Positions 2,357 through 8,971 of a DNA stretch of 51,502 nt are shown in pieces. The DNA is from Microtetraspora niveoalba (GTDB taxonomy: Bacteria; Actinomycetota; Actinomycetes; Streptosporangiales; Streptosporangiaceae): contig NZ_BBYM01000039.1 of NCBI RefSeq assembly GCF_001570405.1, positions 28,809-80,310 on the forward strand, read 5' to 3'. A program made the position numbers and the translations under genes. The notes below the pieces were generated by a model, which was not told the origin of the DNA, ran no database searches, and saw nothing but the letters and a program-made list of their open reading frames with translations. Positions within the stretch are counted from its first letter, which is position 1, and each line of letters starts with the position of its first letter.

Positions 2357-3922
2357 TCAGTCCACTCCCAGCCACATCGCGAGGGCGGCCGACGTGTCGG
2401 TCTCATCCGGACGGTCCTTGCCCGCGAGGTCGGCGATCGTCCAGGCCACGCGGATCACGCGGTCCACCCCCCGGGCGCTGAGCGTTCCGAGGTCGAGCCC
2501 CCGGTACAGGGGCGTGAGCGCTTCGGAGGGCAGCCGGAAGTCGGTGTGGAGCGCCGCGGAGCCGATTTCCGCGTTGTTGCGCCACGGCGTGCCGGTCAGG
2601 CGCTTGAGCGCGCGCTCACGGGCCATCCGCACTCGTTCGGACACGATCGCGCTCGACTCGGCGACGTGCCGGTCCGCCATCAGCTCGGCGCGGGTGGCGC
2701 GGGCGACGCGTACCTTCACGTCGATCCGGTCGAGCAACGGCCCGGAGAGCCGGGCCAGGTAGCGTCTGCGCGCGGTGGGCGTGCAACGGCAGGGGTGGCC
2801 CGGAGTCCCCGCCTCTCCGCAGGGGCACGGGTTCGCGGCGAGAACGAGCATGAACTGCGCGGGGAACGTCACCGTGCCGGCCGCCCGTGCCACGGTCACC
2901 TTGCCGGATTCGAGTGGTTGCCGCAGCGAGTCCAGGACGCTGGTCGAGAACTCCGGCGCCTCGTCCAGGAAGAGCACCCCTTGGTGCGCGAGGGACACCG
3001 CGCCGGGCCGTACGAGACCGCTGCCGCCGCCCACGACGGCCGCGACCGTCGCGGTGTGGTGCGGGGCCACGAAGGGCGGCCGGACGAGCAGCGGCCGGTC
3101 GGGCGGCAGCGTGCCCGCCACCGAATGGATGGCCGTGACCTCCAGTGCCTGCTCACGCTGCAGGGGAGGGAGGAGCGTGGGCAACCGCTCGGCGAGCATG
3201 GTCTTGCCGGTGCCAGGCGGGCCGAGCATCCACAGGTTGTGTCCTCCGGCCGCGCACACCTCCAGGGCCTTCCGACCGGTCGCCTGCCCCGCGACATCTC
3301 GCAGGTCGAGAGGTCGCGCGTCGGCTCCGCCCGCGTCCCCGCCGGGGCCGCCCGCCGCGTCGGCCGTCGGCCAGGGCGTCGCGATCGTCACCGGCAGCCG
3401 GTGCAACTCGTCCTCCCGGAGCCACTCCACCAGCTCGGCCAGGCTGCCCGCGGGCACCACGGTGAGCTCGGGGACGAGTGCCGCCTCCGGCGCGTTCAGC
3501 GACGGCACGACGATCGTGCGGGCGCCCGCCCGCGCCGCCGCGAGCGCAGCGGGCAGCACTCCGCGCACCGGCCGGACCATGCCGTCCAGCCCCAGCTCGC
3601 CGAGAAAGAACGGCTGGGCGATGCGTCGCGCGGGAACCGCGCCCGCGGCGCCGAGTATGGCGATCGCGATGGCCAGGTCGAAGATCGAGCCTCGTTTCGG
3701 CAGGCTGGCGGGGAACAGGCTGATGGTGATCCGCGCGTCCGGCCACCCGAAGCGGCTGTTGAGCAATGCGGACCTGACCCGGTCGCGGGCCTCGTTGATG
3801 GCGGTGTCCAGCAGGCCGATGAGGTGGGTGCCGGCCAGCCCGTGGCCCACGTCCGCCTCGACCTCCACGGTGTGACCGGTGACCCCGATCAGGGTGACGC
3901 ACCGGGTGCGTGCCACGGTCAT
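2357..3922 (-). CDS. comM: YifB/ComM family Mg-chelatase-like AAA+ ATPase
   Basis: The 521-aa length is normal for the family. The N-terminal Lon-protease-like ChlI domain (VEVEADVGHGLAGTHLIGLLDTAINEARDRVRSAL) is followed by an AAA+ module with Walker A GPPGTGKT (residues 234-241), Walker B GVLFLDEAPEF, the cysteine-rich segment NPCPCGEAGTPGHPCRC and the C-terminal Mg-chelatase lid with a VDRVIRVAWTIADLAG arginine-rich helix. ComM is a hexameric branch-migration helicase in transformable bacteria. The gene starts 1 bp after yraN ends, so yraN, comM and probably dprA and xerC form one operon. The start ATG at 3922 gives the usual MTVARTRCVTLIGV N-terminus. Confidence 0.95.
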   Translation of the reverse strand: MTVARTRCVTLIGVTGHTVEVEADVGHGLAGTHLIGLLDTAINEARDRVRSALLNSRFGWPDARITISLFPASLPKRGSIFDLAIAIAILGAAGAVPARRIAQPFFLGELGLDGMVRPVRGVLPAALAAARAGARTIVVPSLNAPEAALVPELTVVPAGSLAELVEWLREDELHRLPVTIATPWPTADAAGGPGGDAGGADARPLDLRDVAGQATGRKALEVCAAGGHNLWMLGPPGTGKTMLAERLPTLLPPLQREQALEVTAIHSVAGTLPPDRPLLVRPPFVAPHHTATVAAVVGGGSGLVRPGAVSLAHQGVLFLDEAPEFSTSVLDSLRQPLESGKVTVARAAGTVTFPAQFMLVLAANPCPCGEAGTPGHPCRCTPTARRRYLARLSGPLLDRIDVKVRVARATRAELMADRHVAESSAIVSERVRMARERALKRLTGTPWRNNAEIGSAALHTDFRLPSEALTPLYRGLDLGTLSARGVDRVIRVAWTIADLAGKDRPDETDTSAALAMWLGVD

Positions 3923-3923
3923 C

Positions 3924-4277
3924 TCAGCTCACCCCGCGCTCGTGCCGGATCGCGAAGTCGCCGGCGAACCGCTCCAGGGCGATCACGTCAACCCGGACGG
4001 AGTCGAAACGCTCCCCCTGCCCGGCCAGCCAGCGGGCGGCGAGCGACCGCAGGCGGTGAAGCTTCGCCCGGCCGACCGCCTCGAAGGCCGTGCCGTGGCT
4101 GCGCCCCGAGCGGGTCTTGACCTCGACGACGACCAGCACCCCGCCGTCGCGGGCCACGATGTCGATCTCGCCTTCCTTGCACCGCCAGTTGCGGGCGAGG
4201 ACGGGTATGCCCCTCGATCTGAGGAACTCCGCGGCGAGCTCCTCGCCCTGCCTGCCCAGCTCGTCCTTGGCTGCCAT
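3924..4277 (-). CDS. yraN: YraN family (UPF0102) endonuclease-like protein
   Basis: A 117-aa protein with the PD-(D/E)XK-like core of UPF0102: LGRQGEELAAEFLRSRGIPVLARNWR, then EIDIVARDGGVLVVVEVKTR, in which E..D..EVK are the putative catalytic residues. It is probably a Holliday-junction resolvase-like nuclease; the biochemical function is not established. The open frame extends upstream to 4445, but the ATG at 4277 is preceded by a strong GGAGGT site (about 7 bp away) and gives the canonical family N-terminus MAAKDELGRQGE. It is the first gene of the yraN-comM-dprA-xerC group. Confidence 0.93.
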   Translation of the reverse strand: MAAKDELGRQGEELAAEFLRSRGIPVLARNWRCKEGEIDIVARDGGVLVVVEVKTRSGRSHGTAFEAVGRAKLHRLRSLAARWLAGQGERFDSVRVDVIALERFAGDFAIRHERGVS

Positions 4278-4478
4278 GGGACCACCTCCGGTCCCAGAGA
4301 CTCGCTCATCACGGCATGGCCCCGAGGCGGTCGACGTCCGCCTGTGGAAACTCGCCGGCCTGTGGACAGAGAACCGCCGCCCCCGCACGTCCATCGAGCC
4401 GGGGTAGCCCCGGGACGGAGCTCCTACGGCCCGTGAGCGGGCCACCGGGGCCGTATGGCCGCGATGGCCGCGATGGCG

Positions 4479-5333
4479 CTACGAGCGGTGTGCGGCGTCG
4501 GCGGCACGGACGGTGTGCGACAGCAGGAGAGCGGTCGTCACCGGCCCGACGCCGCCGGGGACCGGCGTCAACGCCGCGGCCTTCTCGGCCACGGAGGCGG
4601 CGTCCACATCTCCGACCAGCCCCCCGTCGTCGGTGGGGTTGGTGCCCACGTCCACCACCACGGCCCCCGGGGAGACGTGGTCGGCCGTGATCAGCCCGAT
4701 CCTGCCGACCGCGGCCACCACCACGTCGGCCGCCGAGGTGACCGCGGCGAGGTCCTTCGTGCGCGAGTGGCACACCGTCACCGTGGCGTTCCGGTCAAGC
4801 AGCAGGTGGACGGCGGGTTTGCCCACCACCGTCGAGCGGCCGACCACGGCCACGTGCCGGCCGGTCAGCTCGACCCTGTGGTGCTCCAGGATCCGTACGA
4901 CGGCCTCGGCGGTCGCCGGTGCGAACGCGGGCAGACCGGCGGCCAGCCGCCCCAGGGAGAGGGGGTTGGCGCCGTCCACGTCCTTGTCGAAGCGGATCGC
5001 GAGCGCCATGTCCTGGGCGTTCACTCCCGGCGGCAACGGGGTCTGCAGGATGACGCCGTGGACGGAGGCGTCCTCGCTCAGCCTCTCAAGCGTGTCGCGT
5101 ATGTCGCGGCCCGCGGCCTCGGGACCGAGATCCACGATGTCGCAGGCGATGCCCACCTGCTCGGCCGCGCGGGCGATGGAGCGGACGTACCAGGCGCTGG
5201 ACTCGTCGGCCGTGGCGACGACGACGGCGAGCCTCGGCACCGTTCCCGCGGAGGCGAGCCGGGCGGCCTCCGCCGCGGTCTCGGACCTGATCGCGGCGGC
5301 CGGTTCCTTGCCGGAGAGCACCGAAGCGGTCAT
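4479..5333 (-). CDS. folD: FolD-type methylene-THF dehydrogenase lacking the catalytic lysine
   Basis: At 284 aa this is full length for FolD (NADP-dependent 5,10-methylene-tetrahydrofolate dehydrogenase / 5,10-methenyl-THF cyclohydrolase). Preserved family features are ILQTPLPPG (Q97), KDVDGANPLSLGRL (D120), the Rossmann motif GRSTVVGKPAVHLLL, CHSRTKDL, GDVD and the C-terminal PVPGGVGPVTTALL. The YxxxK motif that carries the cyclohydrolase lysine (K56 in human MTHFD1) reads Y49-V-R-S-I53, and codon 53 is ATC. From work on the family, loss of this Lys abolishes cyclohydrolase activity and may spare dehydrogenase activity. The start overlaps the end of the upstream cyclohydrolase-family gene by 4 bp (ATGA), so translation is coupled. 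Confidence 0.93.
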   Translation of the reverse strand: MTASVLSGKEPAAAIRSETAAEAARLASAGTVPRLAVVVATADESSAWYVRSIARAAEQVGIACDIVDLGPEAAGRDIRDTLERLSEDASVHGVILQTPLPPGVNAQDMALAIRFDKDVDGANPLSLGRLAAGLPAFAPATAEAVVRILEHHRVELTGRHVAVVGRSTVVGKPAVHLLLDRNATVTVCHSRTKDLAAVTSAADVVVAAVGRIGLITADHVSPGAVVVDVGTNPTDDGGLVGDVDAASVAEKAAALTPVPGGVGPVTTALLLSHTVRAADAAHRS

Positions 5334-5950
5334 TTCGCGATCTCCTCGCGTACCGCCGCGGTCACCCGTTCGGCGCGGAGGGCGATGTCGTCGACCCCGG
5401 CGACAGTGGCGGCCAGCCGGGTCCGCGCCGCCTCGTCCTTGATCCCGCCGAGGTTGATCTCCACGTTCACGCGTGCGGTGGTCGCCGCCGCACGTGCCGC
5501 CTCCGTGGCGGCGGCGATGTCGGTGACGACGTTGCGGTTGCCGATCGGCAGCAGGTCCTCGGCAAGATCGACGATCGTGTGGGCGACGCCGATCACCTCC
5601 GCGGGCGGTCCCGCCGCCTCCAGCAGGGCCCGCGCGATGGCGGCGGACCTGGCGTCCTTCGCTTCACCGGTGTCCCTGGGCAGCTTGTACGCGTCGGTCA
5701 CGGCGGTGAAAGCGGCGGCGTCCTCCTCGGCGAGCCGCAACGCGGTGGTCCGCAGGTCGTCCGTTTCGGCGATGACGCGCTCGACGGCCTGCCGGTGGCC
5801 GGCGTACTTGTCGCCCGTCGTGTAGCGGGCGACCATGCCCAGGAGGGCGGCGGCCTGGGCCGCGTGCAGGGCCGCCACCGCGCCGCCGCCGGGCGCAGGC
5901 ACCCGGTCGGCGAGCCGGGTCAGGAAGTCACCGATCTTGTCGTCGCGCAT
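5330..5950 (-). CDS. Cyclodeaminase/cyclohydrolase family protein (FchA/FTCD-C-like)
   Basis: A 206-aa, mostly helical protein with the N-terminal signature PAPGGGAVAALHAAQAAALL and the downstream helices typical of formimino-THF cyclodeaminase and bacterial methenyl-THF cyclohydrolase FchA (PF04961). The ATG at 5950 is preceded by GGGAGGAC at suitable spacing; the frame extends to 6001, but that part has no family similarity. The stop overlaps the folD start. Known members act either on formimino-THF (histidine breakdown) or as methenyl-THF cyclohydrolase (C1 assimilation). No hut genes lie nearby, and the partner FolD lacks its cyclohydrolase lysine, so the methenyl-THF cyclohydrolase role is inferred here. 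Confidence 0.88.
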   Translation of the reverse strand: MRDDKIGDFLTRLADRVPAPGGGAVAALHAAQAAALLGMVARYTTGDKYAGHRQAVERVIAETDDLRTTALRLAEEDAAAFTAVTDAYKLPRDTGEAKDARSAAIARALLEAAGPPAEVIGVAHTIVDLAEDLLPIGNRNVVTDIAAATEAARAAATTARVNVEINLGGIKDEAARTRLAATVAGVDDIALRAERVTAAVREEIAK

Positions 5951-6129
5951 GCGCGCTCGTCCTCCCGTACGAGTAATCACCGTGCGCCGAAATCCTCCCA
6001 CGCGCCGCTCGGATGTCCTGGCTGGGTGGCAGCGGGGCGCGGAAAGCGCTCACCACCGGTTCGCACGCCATGGAGCGGCGGACGGCCGGCCGATGCCGAG
6101 GAGGACACTGGCCTTCGGGAGGGGTCGCC

Positions 6130-7782
6130 TTGAGAGAAAAGCTGATCGAAAGCCTGGGCGAGGAGGTCGGAGTCGACCTCCCGGAGGTACGGATCACCGG
6201 AGTGGAGCCCGCCGTGCCGTCGGTGTTCCCCGTCGCCACGGCGGCGGCTGTGAGTGTGGGAGCGGTCACCGCCGCGGCAGCGCTGTACTGGACGCGGTAC
6301 GGGGCACCGGCCACCCAGGCGCGGGATGTCGCGGAAACCGCGGAGGGGCGAGGCTCCGCGGAAGCGGCGACCACGCCTGAGGTGAGCGTGGACGTGCGGC
6401 ACGCCGTCGCGGCGTTCATGAGCGAGCGGTACTTCCAGATCGACGGTGCGGGCATCGGTCTGTGGGCGCCGCTGTCGGGTGACTACCGGACGTCGGACGG
6501 CTGGGTGAGGCTGCACTGCAACTTCGACCATCACCGGGACGCCGCGCTGAGGGCGCTGGAGCTTCCGACCGACGCGGATCGAGCCGATGTCTCCCGGGCC
6601 TGCGAGAGCCGTACGAGCGCGGAGATCGAGGACGCGGTGATCCGCGAGGGCGGATGCGCGGCGGCCATGCGCGGCCGCGAAGAGTGGCTGGCTCATCCGC
6701 AGGCCGAGGTGGTGGCCGGGTCGCCGCTGGTCGCACTGTCGCGGATCGGCGCCGCGCCCGCTCGCGCCGGAACCCTCCGGAACCGGCTCTCTCCCGACAC
6801 GATCGGCGCGGACCGAGCCCTGTCCGTTGCCGACACGATCGGCGCGGACCGCGCCCTGCCCGTTTCCGATGTGACCGCCGCGGGCCGAGCCCTGTCCCAC
6901 CGCTGCGCCTTCGAGGCGGCCGCGACGGATTCGGCCGCACCCGAGGGGCTCCCCTGGGGCTCCGCCCTCCCCGCCCCCGTCCCCTCTTCGGCGGCTGGAC
7001 GGGCCGGTCGGCCGCTGGAGGGCGTACGAGTGCTGGACCTGACGAGGGTGATCGCGGGGCCGGTCGCGGCACGGATCCTGGCCGCGCACGGCGCGGACGT
7101 GCTCCACGTCGGGGCCGCGCACCTGCCCGAGGTGCCCGGGCTGGTGCTGGAGACCGCGTTCGGGAAGCGTTCCTGCCACATCGACCTGCGCACCGAGGCG
7201 GAGACGCTGCGCGAGCTGGTACGGCGGGCCGACGTGGTCATCCAGGCGTACCGTCCCGGGTCGCTCGACGCACGCGGATTCGGGCCGGAGGACCTCGCCG
7301 AGCTGAGGCCGGGAGTGGTGTGCGTCGAGATCTCCGCGTACGGCTCCCGCGGCCCGTGGGGGCGGCGAAGGGGGTTCGACAGTCTGGTGCAGATGGCGTG
7401 CGGCATCGCGCACGATGGCGGAGACGGCGCCCGCCCGCGCCCCCTGCCGTGCCAGGCGCTCGACCACGCCACCGGATATCTGGCCGCCTTCGGCGCCGTC
7501 GCCGGGCTGCTCAGACGCGGGGACGAGGGAGGCTCCTGGCGGGTGGAGCTGTCCCTCGCCCGGACCGCGCGATGGCTGGACGGTCTCGGCAGGTCGGCCG
7601 GCGGCGAGGCTTCCCACGCACCCCACCGGATGGACGATCTGCTGGAGCGGATGGCCAGCTCGTTCGGTGTGCTCACGTATGTGAGGCCGCCGGGTCGGAT
7701 AGAGGGGGCGGAACCGCGTTGGGCGAGTCCTCCGCCGCGGCCGGGCGAGCACCCCGCCGGATGGGCGACAGCCACAGGCTGA
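6130..7782 (+). CDS. Family III CoA-transferase (CaiB/BaiF)
   Basis: About 550 aa from a TTG start at 6130, preceded by GGGAGGGG; the open frame begins at 6013 without family similarity. The C-terminal half is classical CaiB/BaiF: RPLEGVRVLDLTRVIAGPVAARILAAHGADVLHV, KRSCHIDLRTEAE, LVRRADVVIQAYRPGSLDARGFG, VCVEISAYGSRGPW, RGFDSLVQMACGIA and the end VRPPGRIEGAEPRW..PP. The N-terminal half is a more divergent copy of the fold, as in double-domain members. The acyl substrate cannot be told. A 12-residue repeat (about residues 223-257) links the halves. Its last 110 bp overlap the convergent MFS gene. Confidence 0.88.
   Translation: MREKLIESLGEEVGVDLPEVRITGVEPAVPSVFPVATAAAVSVGAVTAAAALYWTRYGAPATQARDVAETAEGRGSAEAATTPEVSVDVRHAVAAFMSERYFQIDGAGIGLWAPLSGDYRTSDGWVRLHCNFDHHRDAALRALELPTDADRADVSRACESRTSAEIEDAVIREGGCAAAMRGREEWLAHPQAEVVAGSPLVALSRIGAAPARAGTLRNRLSPDTIGADRALSVADTIGADRALPVSDVTAAGRALSHRCAFEAAATDSAAPEGLPWGSALPAPVPSSAAGRAGRPLEGVRVLDLTRVIAGPVAARILAAHGADVLHVGAAHLPEVPGLVLETAFGKRSCHIDLRTEAETLRELVRRADVVIQAYRPGSLDARGFGPEDLAELRPGVVCVEISAYGSRGPWGRRRGFDSLVQMACGIAHDGGDGARPRPLPCQALDHATGYLAAFGAVAGLLRRGDEGGSWRVELSLARTARWLDGLGRSAGGEASHAPHRMDDLLERMASSFGVLTYVRPPGRIEGAEPRWASPPPRPGEHPAGWATATG
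6796..6900 (+). repeat. 36-bp tandem repeat inside the CoA-transferase gene
   Basis: Two near-identical 36-bp units (6796-6831 and 6832-6867) and a degenerate third (6868-6900) encode DTIGADRALSVA / DTIGADRALPVS / DVTAAGRALSHR. The repeat lies in the inter-domain linker and keeps the frame. Confidence 0.85.
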
Positions 7783-8971
7783 CGATGCAGAGCAGCGATC
7801 CCGCCGCGCAGATCCAGAGGGCGGGACGCAGCCCGAACACCTGGCCGAGCACGCCGCCGAGCACGCCGCCCAGGGCCATGACCCCCTGCGTCGCGAAGCT
7901 CGTCGTGGCGTTGACCCGGCCGAGCAGCCCGGCCGGGGCCTCGCGCATGGTGACGGACCCGGCGCACACGCTGTAGCAGACGATGGCGGCGCCGGTGATC
8001 ACTTCGGCGATCGCGATCTGGCAGCAGACGAGCCAGATGGGGCCGCTCGCGGCCGCCGTGGCCGCGAACCCCAGGGGGCAGAAGAGCACGGAGCCGAGGA
8101 GCACCCTGTTCTCTCCGAAGCGGCCGGCCAGCCGCGCCGCGATCGCGGCGCCGATCAGGCCGCCGACGCCGAAACCGATCGCCGCGACGCCCACCAGGGG
8201 AGCGGGCAGGCCCAGCACGTTCACCGCGAAGAGCACGTAGAGCGCCATCTCCGCCGCGCCCAGCACGTTGACGATCATGCCGGTGACGCAGAGTGCGCGC
8301 AGCACGCCGTGGTTCATCAGGACGCGCAGCCCCTCGCCGACCTCCCGTCCGAGTCCGCGGCCCTTGGCGGTGGTTCCGTTCTCGGGCGTGCGGATGCCGC
8401 GCAGGCAGACCGCGGACACCAGGAACGAGACCGCGTTGACCACGACCGCGACGGGCGCGGTGAGCAGCGCGACGAGCAGTCCCGCCAGGCCGGGGCCGCC
8501 CATCTGGGCGATGGAGTAGACCGACTGGAATCCGGCGAGGGCCGCCGTCCGCTGGGGCTCCGCGACCACGGTGGCGAGGTGCGGCATGTTGAACGTCCGG
8601 AACACGACCGTGCACAGGCCGATCGCGAAGGCGACGGTGATCAGCCAGGGGATGGTGAGCATCCCCGCCAGCCAGGCGAGCGGCACGGAGAGCGCGGCGA
8701 GGCCGGCGACCAGCTCGCAGGCCACCATGACCGGCCTGCGCCGGGCCACGCGGTCGGCCATGGCGCCGGAGGGCAGGCCGACCAACAGGAACGGGAACGT
8801 CGAGGCGGCCGCGAGCACGCCCATCTGCATCGGGGACGCGTCCAGCGCCACGGCGGCCGTGAGGGGCACGGCCAGCCTGGCGACCTCGCTTCCCGTTTCG
8901 GACACGGCCCTGGCGGACCAGAGGAGCCGGTAGTCGCGCTGCCGGCGCAGGGGGATCAGGGGAGTCGTCAC
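7673..8971 (-). CDS. MFS exporter (MFS_3/EntS-like)
   Basis: A 432-aa protein with twelve predicted membrane spans. The N-terminal RDYRLLWSARAVSETGSEVARLAVPLTA and the loop 2-3 motif GLPSGAMADRVARRRPVM (MFS motif A) place it in the MFS_3 group of drug/siderophore exporters. The substrate is unknown. It starts with GTG at 8971, only 3 bp from the nearest operator and with no clear Shine-Dalgarno site, so the transcript may be leaderless. It is divergent from an ArsR-type regulator and is very likely repressed by it. The 3' end overlaps the CoA-transferase gene tail-to-tail by 110 bp. Confidence 0.93.
   Translation of the reverse strand: MTTPLIPLRRQRDYRLLWSARAVSETGSEVARLAVPLTAAVALDASPMQMGVLAAASTFPFLLVGLPSGAMADRVARRRPVMVACELVAGLAALSVPLAWLAGMLTIPWLITVAFAIGLCTVVFRTFNMPHLATVVAEPQRTAALAGFQSVYSIAQMGGPGLAGLLVALLTAPVAVVVNAVSFLVSAVCLRGIRTPENGTTAKGRGLGREVGEGLRVLMNHGVLRALCVTGMIVNVLGAAEMALYVLFAVNVLGLPAPLVGVAAIGFGVGGLIGAAIAARLAGRFGENRVLLGSVLFCPLGFAATAAASGPIWLVCCQIAIAEVITGAAIVCYSVCAGSVTMREAPAGLLGRVNATTSFATQGVMALGGVLGGVLGQVFGLRPALWICAAGSLLCIVSLWLSPIRRGARPAAAEDSPNAVPPPLSDPAASHT

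Follow-up and report, generated by a model that had tools for sequence, protein, structure and literature searches.

The window, i.e., the whole 51,502-nucleotide stretch of Microtetraspora niveoalba DNA analyzed here, carries two overlapping genes on its minus strand, fchA and a folD paralogue (Table 1). The UPF0102 gene that follows we take to be YraN-type, and the Mg-chelatase gene is presumably ComM-type. A Pfam domain search of the window found no Wood-Ljungdahl pathway genes adjoining the pair. The CoA-transferase III gene on the other side matched its Pfam profile in two stretches, the best one reaching no further than the first 202 of the profile's 366 positions, and its 3' end overlaps the MFS gene on the opposite strand.

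Table 1. Features in and around the folD/fchA pair (positions refer to the window).
Feature	Position	Strand	Remarks
folD paralogue without catalytic lysine	4479..5333	minus	284 aa; predicted NADP-dependent methylene-THF dehydrogenase only
fchA	5330..5950	minus	206 aa, FchA/FTCD_C-type; predicted methenyl-THF cyclohydrolase
fchA start	5950 or 6001	minus	ATG 5950 likely; GTG 6001 alternative
folD codon 53	5175..5177	minus	ATC (Ile) at the place of the YxxxK lysine
ATGA overlap	5330..5333	minus	fchA stop / folD start
GAGGAG	5342..5347	minus	likely folD ribosome-binding site within fchA, 8 nt before ATG; by eye
GGGAGGA	5960..5966	minus	likely fchA ribosome-binding site, 9 nt before ATG 5950; by eye
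UPF0102 gene	3924-4445		downstream of folD, gap of 33 bases by longest ORF
Mg-chelatase gene	2357-3922		beyond the UPF0102 gene
CoA-transferase III gene	6013-7782		upstream of fchA, divergent
MFS gene	7673-8971		next to the CoA-transferase III gene

The folD product is a member of the FolD family, with PF00763 (94.4 bits, cut-off 32.8) followed by PF02882 (196.4 bits, cut-off 27) over its full length. It is without the YxxxK catalytic lysine of bifunctional FolD: codon 53 reads GAT on the plus strand, i.e., ATC on the minus strand, and places Ile53 in the motif YVRSI. Tyr49, Gln97, Asp120, the NADP motif VVGRSTVVGKP and PVPGGVGP are kept. For human DHCH, PMC3368264 lists the key residues Tyr52, Lys56, Gln100, Leu101, Asp125, Gly273 and Gly276; aligned to these, the window protein keeps Tyr, Gln, Asp and the glycines and has Ile for Lys. 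Moreover, it has Thr98, where 86% of the lysine-type sequences have Leu, and Gln at residue 59. The best NCBIfam matches, all under their cut-offs, call the window and Sporomusa FolDs bifunctional, and such automatic names may hence mislead metabolic models.

The fchA product, scored from the 6001 start, matched PF04961 with 179.3 bits (cut-off 24.5). Both this overlapping upstream gene and the exchange of the lysine with Q97, D120 and the NADP motifs kept had been recognized in the first-pass annotation, and codon reading, alignment and domain score bear them out. The nearest solved chain is 7vg4, named methenyltetrahydrofolate cyclohydrolase (E 5.8e-27), and, together with the PF04961 score, a PGGG motif and an Asp shared by all 16 relatives aligned place the protein in the FTCD_C/FchA superfamily. 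On the NCBIfam FchA equivalog NF045657 it reached 133.6 bits, below the cut-off of 275, as did six other FchA-type proteins (135.3-226.2 bits), the window score being the lowest of the seven. PF04961 spans both cyclodeaminases and FchA, and the gene might therefore encode a formimino-THF cyclodeaminase that acts in the breakdown of histidine or purines, FolD merely processing the released methenyl-THF. We consider this most improbable, and the earlier proviso that the neighbour might act on formimino-THF alone is disfavoured. PF07837 (FTCD_N, formiminotransferase) had no match in the genome (8.47 Mb in 98 contigs, with 99.86% completeness), whereas the control search found the Thermotoga maritima copy, and the cyclodeaminase reading leaves the loss of the lysine in the neighbouring FolD unexplained.

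A second, complete FolD, whose existence had been raised as a question at first pass, was found in the same genome. A profile search returned two FolDs above cut-off; the other one, on contig C8, keeps the lysine (YVGGK), has both FolD domains above cut-off and sits after a purH-type gene (PF01808, 357.3 bits). The genome has one PF04961 gene, and PF01268 (formyl-THF synthetase, Fhs) had no match in it. Given this complete, purH-linked FolD on a separate contig, the pair supplements FolD in its own genome and does not replace it, and the earlier proposal that half of a bifunctional enzyme had been replaced fails there.

Within the family, PF04961 was present in 48 of 150 genomes, of which we examined 34, i.e., 30 returned loci, the window included, and four added FchA-positive genomes. 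folD lies directly downstream of fchA in 27 of the 30 loci, with Ile (25) or Leu (2) at residue 53 and Gln97 and Asp120 throughout; two of the added genomes have the pair (G014, G002) and two do not (G011, G116). The pair thus occurs in 29 of 34 genomes. The remaining five have FchA without an adjoining FolD, hence FchA may also have other partners. In the window's genus, PF04961 matched in two of the four genomes drawn, and each of the remaining two has a single FolD.

At least two PF00763 matches, counted by profile and not by lysine, were found in 25 of the 29 pair genomes. In the other four (G014, G047, G053 and G093), the lysine-less FolD is the sole PF00763 match; these are drafts of 91, 91, 93 and 98% completeness, respectively, so a second FolD may have been missed in any one of them. 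As no other match was present, the pair presumably suffices there, and replacement of the bifunctional FolD by the pair is likely in these 4 of 29 genomes. A second lysine-bearing FolD type, mostly with YVRMK and GRSxILG(K/R)P, was seen in 12 family genomes, 10 of which have no FchA match (L198/L202, L201, L204, L206-L210, L212-L215).

A draw at class level gave PF04961 in 52 of 296 genomes. Thirty loci were read, 25 of them not counted before, and FolD lies beside FchA in 19 of these 25, with 18 Ile and one Leu at residue 53 and Gln97 in all. All 46 FchA-adjacent FolDs of family and class (L005-L034, L065-L089) therefore have Gln97 and Asp120, together with Ile (43) or Leu (3) at residue 53. 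A sequencing error at codon 53 was ruled out, because a lysine codon is two bases away from ATC and every one of the 46 relatives has Ile or Leu; the lysine is thus not to be restored by a correction, as had been allowed for at first pass.

The complete FolD elsewhere in the genome would leave a second copy free to decay, and the FolD paralogue could then be a dying copy or pseudoenzyme in which the lysine was lost by decay. This is barely credible. Compared with the copy of the same genus (L014), dN/dS was 0.21 for folD and 0.27 for fchA, i.e., both genes are under purifying selection. Across the actinomycete type, defined as FchA-adjacent, lysine-less and with Gln97 and comprising 51 distinct sequences, the residues Y49, D120, R166, S167, S190, G260, G261 and G263 are invariant. 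Also, the lysine-less FolD is the only FolD found in the four family genomes mentioned above, and a four-base overlap of folD and fchA, with starts chosen by script, recurs in 38 of 46 actinomycete-type pairs (loci L005-L089). On dN/dS and the invariant motifs we ruled out a pseudogene.

A draw at phylum level gave PF04961 in 133 of 396 genomes. FolD lies beside FchA in 28 of the 30 loci read, 23 with Val53/Leu97 and five with Ala53/Phe97. Named genomes were scanned with an FchA alignment of five phylum-draw loci, and the best 80 of 412 confirmed places were used. FolD was found in 73 of these best 80 loci, always adjacent to FchA and never with the lysine (0/73); among these 73, residue 53 is Ala (66), Ile (4) or Val (3), and residue 97 is Phe (63), Leu (7) or Met (3). 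The records include Sporomusa, Blautia, Robinsoniella, Treponema, Pyramidobacter and Desulfocapsaceae. Of 29 acetogen-type genomes searched, which are listed without completeness values, 28 have no PF00763 match other than the FolD linked to FchA; G788 has a further partial match. Overall, lysine-less FchA-adjacent FolDs occur in genomes labelled Actinomycetota, Bacillota, Spirochaetota, Synergistota and Thermodesulfobacteriota.

We pooled all loci and tabulated residue 53 against a neighbouring PF04961 gene, as had been suggested. The 366 FolD rows collapsed, by identity over residues 20-120, to 313 distinct sequences and one fragment without residue 53. The lysine is missing in 166 of 167 distinct FolDs within 400 bases of FchA, and it is kept in 133 and missing in 13 of the 146 for which no FchA was present in the fetched stretch (about 1.5-6.5 kb, not the whole genome). 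Sampling was not random: as FchA was itself the reason for fetching its loci, part of the adjacency is built in, while the residue played no role in the choice. The lysine-bearing set came mostly from top-scoring PF00763 matches, which biases it toward lysine, and 40 Bacillota regions with lower-scoring or paired matches were added as a counterweight. All 14 exceptions stem from these 40 regions, where the lysine is missing in 15 of 16 FchA-adjacent rows and kept in 19 of 32 non-adjacent ones, so that in general the converse holds less strictly than the pooled count suggests. We conclude that absence of the lysine where FchA adjoins is firm in this sample; that a lysine-less FolD has FchA beside it is not.

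The single FchA-adjacent FolD that keeps the lysine, L383 from Bacillota, has Glu instead of Gln97. The 13 lysine-less FolDs without FchA comprise nine of a Bacillota type (YTNAQ and kin), L360, in which an HVANI copy adjoins an HVRLK copy, and L356, L361 and L376, which have no FchA within the fetched stretch. Seven Bacillota loci (L344-L350) contain paired FolDs with complementary losses. One copy lacks the lysine (YTNAQ, YLSSQ or YTDNQ) and has Glu for Asp120 with the NADP motif kept; the other keeps YxxxK and has an altered NADP motif (VVGWSIEIGKP...VHPES or LVGDSFDL). The two copies are about 2.4 kb apart in L350 and on separate contigs in G869 (L352/L353), and for L379 no partner FolD was seen. 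These pairs look like a dehydrogenase-only and a cyclohydrolase-only copy, which would be a second, FchA-free way to split FolD. Two genomes of another family, G384 (L324) and G199 (L325), carry FchA, but no FolD was found within the 18 kb of sequence fetched. Both are listed as 100% complete, and their only FolD match is single and weak. The G384 FchA is 61% identical to the window FchA over 171 aa, and in L324 it has carbohydrate, luciferase-like and SpoIIE/STAS genes next to it.

In a quick tree of 123 FolD sequences, from which columns 49-53, 97 and 120 had been removed, the window type forms one clade of 17 rows (SH-aLRT 100), the deeper branches being weak. A single origin of all FchA-linked lysine-less FolDs (63 of 123 rows) was rejected in the AU test (p 3.3e-6), with the group defined by its state and the tree unable to separate gain from loss. 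The rejection arises because L375 and L377 group with the lysine-bearing L380, L382 and L383; L375 and L377, with Leu at the place of the lysine, are tree neighbours of L383. The state of the lysine has therefore changed more than once. Neither did the pair have a constant partner gene: among 21 loci (the window and 20 others, 18 of them pair loci), no further family occurs in more than three, in a comparison that is rough as gene calling missed folD or fchA in several loci. Small sets of shared genes are mostly found in close relatives (window, L326 and L327), one large protein common to L329, L332 and L341 being an exception. Because the surroundings mostly differ in the 18 pair loci, the pair apparently travels, or is kept, as an independent unit.

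What the exchange of the lysine would do to activity can be read from Escherichia coli FolD. PMC5688156 gives about 19% dehydrogenase for K54N and about 1% for deletion of K54R55, with cyclohydrolase undetectable in both. Lysine together with Gln also supports hydride transfer, i.e., the dehydrogenase step, according to PMC3368264. Dehydrogenase activity without lysine is therefore not guaranteed, as the deletion mutant illustrates, and lysine-less FolDs must have adapted. The type-specific residues 41, 57, 98, 123, 142 and 231 are candidates for such adaptations.

Alternatively, the FolD paralogue could have retained both activities, another residue standing in for the lysine, with FchA being superfluous or serving a different purpose. 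In favour of this, the actinomycete type keeps Gln97 and the further pocket residues named above, in contrast to the acetogen type with Phe, Leu or Met at 97. Some basic residues that might substitute are more common in the clade compared with lysine-bearing FolDs (R51 in 96 versus 46%, R191 in 98 versus 34%, R211 in 98 versus 39%), H219 is present in 84% of the clade where lysine-bearing FolDs mostly have Met, and K59 in 76%. However, the window FolD itself has Gln at 59, and cyclohydrolase was undetectable in E. coli K54N (PMC5688156). We hence regard retained bifunctionality as very unlikely.

We propose instead, with considerable confidence, that the overlapping pair is a split bifunctional FolD, i.e., a dehydrogenase-only FolD with an FchA cyclohydrolase, added to the housekeeping FolD. 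A split pathway of translationally coupled genes had been the first-pass reading; comparison and published mutants now speak for it, and the two activities stay predictions. The FolD paralogue would oxidize 5,10-methylene-THF to 5,10-methenyl-THF with NADP+ and, having no proton-shuttling lysine, would leave methenyl-THF unhydrolysed; FchA, encoded in the same overlapping unit, would convert it to 10-formyl-THF. Use of NADP rather than NAD is suggested because none of the 51 sequences deviates at R166, S167 or S190, residues that, by comparison with human DHCH, presumably mark NADP use. As formyl-THF synthetase had no match in the genome, the oxidative direction, from methylene-THF to 10-formyl-THF with a yield of NADPH, appears most likely. 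In its own genome, the pair may add capacity or a separately regulated route beside the purH-linked FolD, and in a few relatives it would probably be the only FolD route. We infer both activities, the shared message, cofactor choice, direction and role of the pair from the sequences.

Aluri et al. (doi 10.1099/mic.0.000209) are said to have found in 2016 that Clostridium perfringens FolD is dehydrogenase-only and FchA the cyclohydrolase, both being needed to replace E. coli folD; Fhs reportedly belongs to that system, going by the title. The window pair would resemble it in this division of activities. The window genome differs in having no Fhs match, a complete FolD as well, and Gln97 kept. 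The chain 7vg4 is presumably Methylobacterium FchA, the partner of MtdA, and thus a separate cyclohydrolase of the same family as the window FchA. MtdA is a different kind of dehydrogenase, whereas the window protein carries the FolD N-terminal domain PF00763. PMC7219735 mentions a separate FchA in some microbes and refers for this to the C. perfringens work of Aluri et al. (2016).

In Acetobacterium woodii, the cluster fhs1-fchA-folD-rnfC2-metVF has fchA directly upstream of folD, as in the window (gene order from PMC10472528 and PMC6925170). The missing lysine and this gene order are common to the acetogen and the window type. In contrast to the actinomycete type with Ile/Leu53 and Gln97, acetogen-type FolDs mostly have Ala53, with Phe, Leu or Met at 97 (the latter in 73/73 FolDs from the best 80 of 412 places). 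FolD is alone in 28 of 29 acetogen-type genomes, whereas the window genome has a second one; Fhs, which would be expected of the acetogen type, had no PF01268 match in the window genome. Also, the A. woodii pair lies in a Wood-Ljungdahl methyl branch cluster, and the window pair beside none of those genes. E. coli K54N lost the same lysine, but as a laboratory mutation without a compensating FchA, while the loss in the window is natural and fixed. No report of FchA-linked lysine-less FolD in actinomycetes was found among the listed titles of open-licence PMC papers, and a word find for 'fchA' in the main text of PMC11064299, on the FolD family across life, gave no hit. Clostridia and acetogens are already known to have the split itself; what sets the actinomycete form apart is Ile/Leu with Gln97, patchy occurrence and changing neighbours.

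The FolD lysine is an anchor for the inhibitor carolacton, and K54N is a carolacton-resistant mutant whose leftover activity is carolacton-insensitive (PMC5688156). By analogy, the actinomycete pair might be a portable, inhibitor-insensitive bypass of FolD, selected by a natural FolD inhibitor. FchA would supply the lost step, so that flow to 10-formyl-THF could persist when the housekeeping FolD is blocked. Such a bypass would fit patchy presence (two of four genomes of the genus), the lack of constant neighbours and the coexisting complete FolD; we nevertheless hold it to be unlikely.

The comparison gives a simple rule: a FolD adjacent to FchA has nearly always lost its cyclohydrolase lysine. 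The actinomycete form, which is accompanied by another FolD in 25 of 29 genomes and stands alone in four, offers a natural series for asking why FolD splits and what the gain is.
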